DNA from: Halichondria panicea
Taxonomy: Eukaryota > Porifera > Demospongiae > Suberitida > Halichondriidae
NCBI RefSeq assembly: GCF_963675165.1
Contig: NC_087391.1
Span: forward strand, 1,321,001 to 1,385,000
DNA length: 64,000 nt
Reading direction: 5' to 3'
Made by a program: the position numbers and the translations under genes
In this document: piece by piece, positions 41,601 to 56,600 of the stretch
How the letters are laid out: every line of letters starts with the position of its first letter
Position numbering within the stretch: the stretch's first letter is position 1
Notes under the pieces: generated by a model
The model's database searches: none
Seen by the model: the letters and a program-made list of their open reading frames with translations, nothing else
What the model was told of the DNA's origin: nothing

Positions 41601-44600
41601 GCACCTCCATCACAACACACCTTGGATATAGGGCAGGGTCATAGAGGTCATTGTAGAAGGTCGTTCCTACAGAGTTCACCATGGCAACCCAAGTCCAATA
41701 GGAGACGGTGTGTGTGGAGACACTCATGTGCTCATAACCCTTCTCCGTAAAAGACTGCAAATACATATACATATAATTATACATAATGAATATATGCAGT
41801 AAAAAAGACATATACACACATACACATGCATCTTATTTAAGGAAGTGACTACAAATTGATTACAAGGAAAGGTACATGTAGCTATAGACCACCCATTTTA
41901 CGGTTTAGTGTGTACAGCATTTGCTATGAAAACATTGGGCGGAGGCTACACTAGGAGTTGTAAAATAAATTTTATCGTGGTTACATACTTGGGGAAATGG
42001 TTATGCAATAGTGAGTAACAGCCCCAGTCGCTGGCCCACTGGTACAACATTGGGAACGCAAAAACTGATAAGGGTAGAAAAAGAATTCCCATACTTATCA
42101 AGGTTTCGTAATTATGAAGGTTTCTTTCACACGGTTATTAAAATTAATTTTTTTTATTGAATGCAGCTATACTAATACTGACTCCCAAGAAGACGCACAA
42201 GTGTGAGATGGTTGTTTGGGGTTTGAGGACATTATAATATTATTAACCTGTTTTCTCATATTCTCACAGTCGGTCATGAAGGTACCAAAACGACCAGAGT
42301 ATGACTCTTCCGCTAGGCACTGTGTGGGTGTGGGGTGGGTGGTAGAGAGAGCGTGTGTGTGTGTGTGTGTGTGTGTGTATGTGTGTGTGTATGTGTGGGT
42401 GATAGAGTGAGTGTATGAGTGGGTGGTAGAGTGTGTGTGTGTGTGTGTGTGGTGGGTGGTAGAGTTAGAGTGAGTATGACTCTTCCGCTAGGCAATGTGT
42501 GTGTGTGGTGGATGGTAGAGAGTGTGTGGTGGGTGGTAGATAGTGTGTGTGTGTGTGTGTGTGTGTGTGTGTGTGTGTGTGAGGGGTTGGGTTACATGTA
42601 AAAGTACGTGTATGTACATACGTAGCACAACAATAATTTATTAACTTTGTCATAGATTGTGAATGTGTGTGTGTGGAACTGACCATGAGAAACTTGTCAT
42701 TAAACTCGAAGGCAGACGGGCATTGTCTCATCACCTGCACAAACAATACAATGGTATATAGACTCCACTGTATGGCTTCCACGCTACCACAATACCCAGG
42801 AATGTAGTCATATGTAACCTAGACAACTATACCTATCAAAACACTACTTTATCAGCACCTGTGTAATCTCTCTGATGCTTACCTAGACCTTCGATAATTT
42901 AATTTAGGTATGCCTGAGTGAAACCAACATTATGTATGTACACACACACTCGACACACACACTCGCTTGGGAGTATGCATGGCACGACTTACATGTACAT
43001 GCTCAGACACTACATTATGGTAATTATTGATAAGAGGCAGACTCCTATGTCATAATTTGATACTAAATATGCTGCACTTTGACACTTGGGAGAAGTGGAC
43101 CGAGAAATGTTTTCAAAACTTCAGTTCCCATCCCTTCCTGAAAGCCCCCCCCCCCCCATCCTCACTGTTTCCCCCTAGCTTTCTTTCCAATTCTTTCCAA
43201 TGCCCCCCCCTATACTCCCCCGTCTCACTCTCTCACCTGCCAAACAGCGTCCAGCCACTGTAAGAAGATGGGACCATCGCTCTTGATCTTCGTCTTGCCC
43301 TGATAGGAGTGTCTTCCACGAAATGGGTGGCCAAACCACACCCACTCCTTCTGGACTAGAATCTGAGGCAACAAAGAAAAAACGTTTTAAATTATTTACA
43401 AACTATAGTTAGCCTCGATCTCCGACTCTCCTTTTTCTGTTCTTTGTCACAATCATGTAACACGGCATTAATTGGAGGAATAAAGAGAGAAAAGGAGAGC
43501 CTGGATGTAAAGTCACGTGAGGGTAGAAGGGTGGTAGAAAGGTAAAATTGAGCGTGGGCAGGTAGATGTTGAGATATTGGACTGCCCACCTCGATCTATG
43601 ACTAATGAACTTTGTAGGACTCAACTGGTGGACATGGCTTGGAAATGGAAGTTTGCAAGCAGTTCAATGTGTTATACAAGCTAGCTATAGCCATACCTAG
43701 CTTACTAGATTGTATGTTTTACCGAGATCTAGGTAGATTACACTAGTTTTTTTGTGTCGTGCCAAATGTTAGAATTGCTAGATTTATAGCTTAGTCGTCA
43801 TTATCATCTAAGCAGGTAGCTGTACTAAGCTACCCTGCAGTGCTATCAGAGCTGGCCACGCTGGTTCTGCTCTGAGCTCGGTCAGTTAATCTGCTCCTGC
43901 TTGGTAGACTTCTAGCTAGTGTCTTAATGTGTGAGAGAATACCCTACGTCACAATTGTGGGCTATACATAGGATCACGCGACTTTGTATACCAGGCTTTA
44001 TTTTTTCTTCAACATCCACCATTTCCTTTATTACTGCCTCCCTTCATATCTATATTGAGAGATAGACAAGAACAAGAAAAAGTACAGCCTGGGGACGAGG
44101 CTATAGATTATAGTGGCCACCCATAAATTAACCCAGCACAATACATAACAGTGTGCATGCATGTGCACCTGGAAGCAAGCCTACAAAGTTGAGGTTACCA
44201 AGTGGGTGGCTATCAGCCACGTGCTTGCTTAGTGGCTTTGCTATATAATCCTTCTGGTTAAGGGTAGCCATTGATGACCTGATGATTAATTATGGTGGGA
44301 GGTTAATAGCTGCAAATTCCATTTCCCTCTAAATTACATGTAGAAGGTTTCTGGCCTTCAGCAGCTATTATTACATATACATATACTAGCCTCGATCCCA
44401 GGCCGCACTTCCCGCTAGGGAAGTGGGCCTGGTATCGACTGCTTGCGCATGCGCTAATATCCCCCCGGTATCTGGGGGCTTTGGATAACATCGTTTATGC
44501 TCAGTAAAACTATGACATCACAACGAAAGGAAGTGGATTGAAGGAAGTAGATAGAAAGTTCGATTGAAGGTTTCTAGCCCATCGGATAGCATTCTCTGAT

Positions 44601-53600: not shown

Positions 53601-56600
53601 AAACCAAACAACTACTATAACCCGTGGCCGCCCACACGCCTCGGGTTAATAAAATAAAAATTGTGTGACTGTCAGTATTGTTTAATAATGATCCTTACCA
53701 CATTCATGTACAGCAACAACAAAGTTTGTACCAATGTAATACCTATTACTTCAGCACTCTTTACCCATGCACACATCCACCTACCAGGCAGTTTGAATAT
53801 ACTGGGTATGCTCCTGTTACCAATGAAGGTGGGGTTGGGATGGTGAATGGCAGCGTAGTACTGGAATGCAAACAGCTCTGTTAGGGGCTACAGAAAAAGA
53901 ATAAAAACGAGGGAATCAACATCGTACTGATTGAATAATATTAGGAGCAGTTTAGTTGAGGAGGTATTCTATGTTTTACTGCATCCATGACGTGTGGATC
54001 ATGGCTGATACGAGTTACTGTCTTGAGAAACCTGTCAATATATATACACACAAAGACAGCTGTGATGATCGACTGTCTATATAACACAAAAGACAACTGT
54101 GATGATCGACTGTCCATACAACACAAAAGACAGCTGCTTATCAACAAGTCAAGTAATTGGTGCTAATTGTAGGCTTCAGTAATGTTTTTTTCCACTTCCA
54201 CTTTTCTAACTAGGGTACTGTATGCATAGCTGGTAATTTTCGTTGGTGCAAATTGTTGTATCAACTACAGTGCATACCCATTTAAATATTTCGTATTTAA
54301 TTACGTACAGCTCAGCATAATGACATTGAACCTATTGCGGTCGTAGTTTTAATTCGTATAATATACGAAATAATTATACCACCGAAAATAACCCTCTTAG
54401 ACTATCATTCAGTATTAAACTGACCTTGGATAGGACGAAGGTTCTCTCTAGCAGCTCTCGGAGGGACTCAGCGTCATAGGTATTGTGAGGATGTACGTGC
54501 AGCTTGAGGGAGTGGGAGGTACGACAGAGGATGAGAAGTCCCTCGGGAAGTTTGAGTCCTTGCTCCTTGAGATGTACGGACTGCAACTTAGTCACCGAGT
54601 GGATCGAATAGAGAGGGAACGCCACACTCAGGGTATAGCGGGCTGTGTGTGTGTGTGTGTGTGGGGGGGTATAGCGGGCTGTGTGTGTGTGTGTGGGGGG
54701 GGTATAGCGGGCTGTGTGTGTGTGTGTGTGTGTATGGGGGGGTATAGCGGGCTGTGTGTGTGTGTGTGTGTGTGTGTGTGGGGGGTATAGCGGGCTGTGT
54801 GTGTGGGGGGTATAGCGGGCTGTGTGTGTGTGTGTGTGTGTGTGTGAGGGAGTATAGCGGGCTGTGTGTGTGGGGGGGTATAGCGGGCTGTGTGTGTGTG
54901 TGTGGGGGGGTATAACGGGTGTGTGTGTGTGTGTGTGTGTGTGTGTGGGGGGGGGGGTGTAAAGTAAGGCAGAGTACAACTGGTACTGTAAGTATTTCCT
55001 AAGTGAAATACTTACAAGTGTGGACGGAAGTGCCCATGCAAGCATACGTGTACATACTTTGCAAAAAAAAACTAAATGCCAAACAGTTGGTAATTAAAGA
55101 AAAGGCTATTGAAGCAATAGCTGCTGACTTAGGGCGTTCAAGAGTTCCTTGACCTCATTTTATGCTTCGCAGCATCCTTAGCACACGCACGCACGCACGC
55201 ACACACGCACACACGCACACACACACAGACGCACGCACGCACGCACGCACGCACACACACACACACACACACACACACACACACACACACACACACACAC
55301 ACACACACACACACACACACACACACACACACACACACACACACACACACACACACGAGCATGTTGTACAAGGCTGTCTGGCACATGCTAGTTAACTTAC
55401 TACTAGAAGCGGTGATGGCTTGCTTCTTCTTCTTGCTTATCAGCTCCGAGCGTGGTGACCAGGTGGTTGGCAGAGAGCGAGGAGGAGGCAAGGACCTGTA
55501 CGCCACTGATCCTCTATCCTCCGCAGTGAAGGCAAAGTCGGTGTTCTGGTAGGCACTGGGAGTGACCACTGAGTGGGGTCGTGAGGAGGGCAGTGCAGTC
55601 ATGGACGTACGTGAGGTCAGAGTCTCAGTATCGAAGTTGTCTCTCAAGAGAACATCCTCTAGAAAAGGATCCTGTAGATCTACAAAGTCATCATCAAGGC
55701 TCTTGCGTGTTCCGTTGTGTCCTGCTTTGTTTGGTATGTCATGTGATGTAACCACTCGGTCATGTGACCCGTTCACCCTAATAGGCGGGGAGAGTAGGGG
55801 TAAATTTTGGGGCTCGGATTTCAATCGTCTTGTTGTTTTTCGTTTCCTCCTCGGAGGTGGTACAGGAGTGGGAGAGTCTCCGCGTTGGTTTACTGCAGGC
55901 TCAGCAAGGGAATTTCCCATTGCTGGTGGGGAATCCCCTGGATGTTCCGGTGAGCTCTGGGTGGTATCAGACGATGAGGGAGGTGTGGACTCTTCAGGGG
56001 GAGGGGACAAAAGAGGGGGTTGTTTAGGGTGCTGCACCTAGAGAGAGAGTGGATAGAAACAGCTAGAGTTAGTAGTTAAACAAGCACACACAATATAGAC
56101 GAACAGAAGTAACCAGACACGAGCATAGTTACACAATATAGACGAATAGAAGTAACCAGACACGAGCATAGTTATTATAGAAAATCTGCACACTCTAAGC
56201 AAGGCACCACCTGCACTTCATACAGCACAACAGCTGACGTTGTGTGAATGTACGCGTACACTATCCAGCACGTAACTACATGATGCTCACTTTGCCAAAA
56301 GGGTGATGTCTAAAGTCAGTGGGCAGACTGGTCACCAGTTCACTCCTTCCCCCATCCTCTTGCTGTAACAGTATCCGTGGCAACGGCTTCGGTTTCTTGG
56401 GAACCCTAGGACTAGATGACTTGCTTCTTGCTCGAGCAGCTGCATCATGGATTGTCTTCTGTGTCTCAGTTACTCGTGCAATCTCCATGTTTGCGTACGG
56501 TCTGGTATCAGTGTCCAGAGTTTGGAGGCTGTCTTTAGTTGATTCTGCGCCCAAACACGGTTCTGAATAAATGGCATCACCAAAATGATGATTCGAATCT

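Follow-up and report, generated by a model that had tools for sequence, protein, structure and literature searches.

Why do four minisatellites in one sponge gene each lie on the edge of an exon, and what becomes of the splice-site copies that they carry? The gene encodes a myotubularin-family protein and lies on the minus strand of a 64,000-nt stretch of the Halichondria panicea genome (C15:1321001-1385000, in an assembly of 131 Mb and 39 contigs), here called the window, whose own positions are used below. We conclude, with a probability of roughly 0.8, that the arrays are minisatellites of the type described in amphioxus as "mirages": duplications that spanned exon edges as a by-product, with the exon-proximal splice site chosen and the outer copies left as decoys. 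This reading is supported by the anatomy of the arrays, by their reading frames, by their recurrence in other genes and by the lack of an excess of such arrays outside the window.

The myotubularin-family gene and its four arrays

The gene consists of 13 exons between 55700, an end left open, and 42248; they agree in phase and join without a stop into 531 amino acids. The joined protein matches PF06602 in a family profile search (E 3e-81) and the solved MTMR2 (E 6.8e-55). Four of these exons, all on the minus strand, carry an array, and the edges that a first-pass annotation of the window had given for them are correct, the four joining in phase with the nine others. The exons at 54425..54642 and 42248..42319, with arrays A and D on their acceptor sides, were placed by the in-phase join, the latter also by its copies. 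The exons at 51013..51184 (array B, acceptor side) and 49365..49521 (array C, donor side) were placed by the join and by alignment to MTMR2; the former contains the aligned LC.TYP stretch and the latter ends in the P-loop-like motif VLVAFDCGWDRTTQ. The Phe of this motif is aligned opposite a Ser of the MTMR2 chain, at what we take to be the place of the catalytic Cys, which would make the protein probably a pseudophosphatase. In the copies within array C, the P-loop-like motif has E instead of D.

Array A (54631..54949, minus strand; repeat finder and letters) is built of (CA)n-AG and the first 12 exon nucleotides (CCCGCTATACCC). Upstream of the acceptor at 54642 lie eight copies of these 12 nucleotides, each behind a CA run, and seven keep the AG. 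Use of the intact AGs would lengthen the exon by 36-245 nt; four of the seven are in frame and free of stops (36, 69, 177 and 219 nt added), and three shift the frame and lead to a stop. Array B (51157..51640, minus strand; repeat finder and letters) has a unit of about 64 bp, consisting of a C-run, ACAG and the first 28 exon nucleotides, of which seven copies lie upstream of the acceptor at 51184. C-runs precede six of the seven, and all seven have an AG that leads to a stop (six computed, the outermost read by hand). The outermost copy, at 51640, matches the exon at 24/28 positions and the other six at 27-28/28. The exon-proximal part of array C (49125..49408, minus strand; repeat finder) has an 80-bp unit that comprises the last 43 exon nucleotides, the donor and intron sequence. 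Six copies of the 43 nucleotides and donor, each with its GT, follow the donor at 49365, and translation continued past this first donor ends at a stop seven codons on, before any of the outer donors is reached. Array D (42297..42581, minus strand; repeat finder and letters) consists of CA/CCACC-rich repeats with a single upstream copy, at 42494, of 23 exon nucleotides next to the acceptor at 42319. The AG of this copy reads AT, and D is therefore not a stack of splice sites.

Both kinds of boundary are thus affected in this gene, the acceptor at A, B and D and the donor at C. The splice dinucleotide is kept in 20 of 22 extra copies (A 7/8, B 7/7, C 6/6, D 0/1); 16 of these 20 lead to a premature stop (A 3, B 7, C 6) and the remaining four, all at A, are in frame. 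At B and C only the exon-proximal site leaves an open frame. Compared with predicted real sites, the computed strength of the copies falls at the 35-69th percentile for A, the 65-97th for B and the 64th for C, and the copies within an array carry different substitutions. The first-pass description of four arrays seeded by exon edges, each a stack of competing splice sites, consequently holds for A, B and C, which have real repeated copies with intact sites of similar computed strength, whereas D contributes one extra exon copy and no second site.

A second block with the 80-bp unit of array C lies at 46900..47151 (minus strand; repeat finder), and a transposon of 1,975 bp occupies the interval between the two parts (47151..49125, strand not assigned). 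It was recognized by its 516-bp terminal inverted repeats, which are 93.8% identical and bordered by ACAG on both sides, and by dispersed matches to one of its arms. The insertion cuts one array C copy in two: the exon part ends at 49126 and the GT follows 47147. A genome search with one transposon arm gave at least 44 matches on many contigs, including the arm itself and its own second arm (40 of 77 candidates were scored). Several matches are opposed pairs less than 2 kb apart, and the next closest among the matches listed is 99% identical, so the transposon belongs to a dispersed family. Since the same unit is found on both sides of it, array C was once a single array, longer than first reported, that the transposon divided.

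Comparison with known systems

Two reports on amphioxus describe mirages as minisatellite-like tandem duplications across exon-intron boundaries (PMC3087553, PMC3902484). The genes concerned are Adh3 and the globins BflGb6 and BflGb9 (PMC3087553), with PGBD5 and troponin C added later (PMC3902484), and regular splicing reportedly persists despite the duplicated sites (PMC3087553, PMC3902484). The present arrays share this anatomy. The repeat unit lies across the exon-intron boundary at A, B and C, D having its single exon copy; 5' and 3' exon boundaries are both affected, and many copies carry AG or GT (amphioxus units are 10-160 bp). The first-pass annotation knew of no described system of this kind; in view of the amphioxus reports, the arrays are a mirage-type case in another genome and no new system. 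Its suggestion that they offer a route to new or variable splicing also fares poorly, given the premature stops behind 16 of the 20 intact copies and the reportedly undisturbed splicing in amphioxus. The cases differ in that four arrays here fall in one gene, one of them split by a transposon, and are known from DNA alone. Furthermore, copy number in amphioxus reportedly varies between haplotypes or cells, and the arrays described here come from one assembly. A literature search found no reports of mirages outside amphioxus, most subscription papers being beyond its reach.

Other systems are less similar. The human IFI6 (6-16) minisatellite provides multiple splice donors, and two downstream units are said to act as donors (PMC4526556). 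Array C resembles it in having tandem donor copies beside an exon and differs in that every outer donor leads to a stop, as read from the sequence by which the array is known. Intron gain in Drosophila through tandem duplication of proto-splice sites (PMC2891723) likewise involves splice signals copied by local duplication. In that case coding sequence, once duplicated, was turned into introns, whereas the present arrays copy just the edges of existing introns. Tandem repeats that alter human gene structure are the subject of PMC2812944, and intronic minisatellites of earthworms that of PMC12783039.

Further cases in the genome

Outside the window, 240 kb of the genome were fetched, consisting of C4:80001-110000 (30 kb) and another 210 kb, and two more strong exon-edge arrays, in unrelated genes, were accepted in this DNA. 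One is an acceptor array with a 68-bp unit repeated 16 times (L015:4627-5714), in which 15 outer acceptors reach the 85-96th percentile among predicted sites. The exon at this array encodes a DUF1232 domain, and we take the gene to be RNF170-like. As an example of an exon-edge array it is stronger than the four in the window. The other is a donor array with a 34-bp unit repeated 31.5 times (about 31 copies; L029:2983-4042), in a gene whose translation suggests that it is PTP-receptor-like. Both lie within one array-rich 30-kb stretch, and the locus of the donor array was fetched deliberately as an extension rather than drawn at random. A 59-bp array of 22 units (L016:8871-10000, continuing in L029) stops 4 nt short of a predicted exon in a PTP-receptor-like gene and copies no exon sequence.

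No exon-edge array was accepted in the remaining 210 kb, and in eight loci of myotubularin relatives, some of them overlapping, none of 150 junctions had a copy. These few cases fit a pattern in which mirages follow local minisatellite density. Within the window, a KN-type homeobox gene has a donor in two copies (36913..36958, plus strand; letters and family match): GGGACTGAG followed by gta occurs twice, 23 nt apart, which is possibly a fifth, minimal case.

Placement of arrays and copies relative to exon edges

The exon-edge copies themselves are not due to chance; whether exon edges are hit more often than chance would predict is a separate question. Exons were predicted with a finder whose training set was the window plus 200 kb drawn at random from the genome. 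Of 12 exons of the myotubularin-family gene used as a check, it placed 10 exactly on the raw sequence and 8 once arrays had been shortened. Array positions were compared with a uniform null and with a constrained null in which an array covers at most 45 coding nucleotides and no whole exon. Four exons of the myotubularin-family gene, the homeobox and RNF170-like exons and the four array extents in the window were set by hand, and the distal part of array C was removed from the array list.

Of the 21 arrays in the window, 6 overlap an exon edge (5 of them accepted by hand), against 5.8 expected under the uniform and 3.8 under the constrained null. Outside the window, the overlaps number 5, 4, 2, 1 and 1 of 58 arrays at exon thresholds from 5 to 25, where the constrained null predicts 12.0, 8.6, 6.2, 4.3 and 2.9. 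The uniform null gives 17.2 at the loosest threshold (5/58 observed) and 6.7 at the strictest (1/58 observed), all of these being small numbers. Tighter thresholds shrink the expected counts, and the observed count stays below them at each. By region, C4:80001-110000 has 2 of 21 arrays on edges (7.9 expected under the uniform null, 5.7 under the constrained) and the other 210 kb have 3 of 37 (9.1 and 6.7). The three overlaps in the latter were not accepted as mirages; two fall on poor exons and one, S13 1295, was not read. Since fewer arrays lie on edges outside the window than random placement would yield, splice junctions as recurrent sites of local duplication, the cause proposed in the first-pass annotation, are not supported.

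Individual junctions were also scanned for local copies. An initial scan with ungapped 30-mers and a simple-sequence filter (10/540 acceptors, 21/537 donors, 1061/10916 intron positions and 60/7143 exon positions) was replaced, as it overlooked the acceptors at A, B and D and misplaced the donor of C. The second scan excluded every predicted junction that fell within an array. The sample had 59 of these and the window 5, with copies at 42 and 2 of them, respectively; the exclusion hid the RNF170-like case. Among the predicted real junctions that remained, 3/774 in the sample and 3/248 in the window had a copy. The corresponding counts for noncoding decoys were 81/1900 and 31/699 for AG and 765/5733 and 122/2199 for GT, and for decoys inside predicted exons 28/1985 and 4/513 for AG and 126/3774 and 27/1062 for GT. 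A few large arrays inflate both decoy and junction counts, and this control therefore speaks against an excess only weakly.

A scan that makes no use of repeat-finder extents was run once arrays had been shortened ahead of exon prediction. Copies turned up at 10 of the 766 junctions in the sample and at 4 of the 242 in the window. In the sample only the RNF170-like junction was accepted. S21, S23, S25 and the pair S19 18444/18562 were judged from their letters to be coding repeats or doubtful exons; at S15 15714 the exon table and array position indicate that the array begins after the likely donor. S17 9882 and S19 14182/15227, with copies 768 and 1101 bp away, were left out unread. In the window A, C (its donor 23 nt off) and D were accepted, B was missed through a misplaced acceptor, and 16175-16329 was rejected as a false exon. 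At loci added later, copies were present at 0/67 junctions in L030 and L031, 0/41 in L032 and 2/93 in L016 and L029, these two being S15 15714 again and the PTP-receptor-like donor.

Origin of the arrays and alternative explanations

We suggest that local duplications arise anywhere and that some would happen to span an exon-intron boundary. Such arrays could then grow away from the exon by slippage or unequal exchange, slippage being our presumed cause, and acceptor arrays may often be seated on simple sequence, either C-runs or CA repeats. Selection would tolerate an array provided that splicing continued to use the exon-proximal site; exon definition would pick that site, which also keeps the reading frame open, and the outer copies would become silent intronic decoys. 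On this account the arrays arise because the genome is dense in exons and minisatellites and not because splice junctions attract duplication. By appearance the arrays are products of ordinary repeat growth, which the splicing machinery must for the most part ignore.

Several points weigh against this reading, and most of them bear on the unlikely alternative that splice junctions, or their polypyrimidine or GT-rich tracts, are true duplication hotspots in this genome. Of the 7 arrays in the myotubularin-family gene, 4 lie across an edge, where 0.51-1.09 are expected (P 0.0008-0.0124 across the nulls used), values that are optimistic because the gene was picked post hoc for its arrays. With the in-array junctions restored, 45/833 sample junctions have a copy and are no longer below the AG decoys. 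Overprediction by the exon finder, which is probable, raises the expected counts in favor of no excess, and repeat-finder extents may end short of the exon, as at A and D, an error corrected by hand in the window only. The three acceptor arrays and the RNF170-like one also all lie on C- or CA-runs, and C8 and (CA)5 occur in the last 40 nt of only 10/325 and 11/325 predicted acceptors. This tract argument is circular, however, because the tract belongs to the array. Overlaps below expectation at every threshold tried outside the window speak against hotspots, as do, weakly, the local copies at noncoding decoys, which are commoner than those at real junctions once junctions within arrays are left aside. 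The silence of the outer copies is likewise presumed, and at A the four AGs in frame without a stop could be used and tolerated. That the stacks act as devices for variable splicing, giving protein or dosage variants as reported for IFI6 (PMC4526556), would agree with these in-frame additions and with the computed strength of the intact copies; we nevertheless consider it improbable in light of the stops behind most intact copies, the lack of a usable second acceptor at D and the splicing of amphioxus mirages, which reportedly stays regular.

The by-product reading was also set against two explanations that concern how the arrays came to be. Under one, parts of pre-existing arrays were later taken up as exon edges. 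The copied exon part at A is merely 12 nt, and as the outermost and innermost copies at B are both boundary copies, the ancestral site could be the outermost. The copied parts at B and C encode stretches that align to MTMR2, however, so exon sequence is the likely source, and we regard the reverse order as very unlikely. Under the other, read stutter or collapse during assembly made or resized the arrays. Tandem arrays are prone to such errors, the copy numbers rest on one assembly, and BflGb6 of amphioxus was aberrantly assembled in a draft genome (PMC3087553). Substitutions that differ between copies, the transposon inside array C and the similar arrays in two other genes make an artefact very unlikely.

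Implications

A further-reaching interpretation, which we put forward as doubtful, is that mirages recur in a non-cephalochordate lineage and that at least stack A gives rise to in-frame variants of protein length. Minisatellite turnover would then edit exon edges, possibly including the P-loop-like stretch beside array C. If exon-edge minisatellites do recur outside amphioxus, they would serve as natural experiments on spliceosomal choice between many near-identical neighboring sites, and new introns and shifted exon edges could plausibly originate from them.

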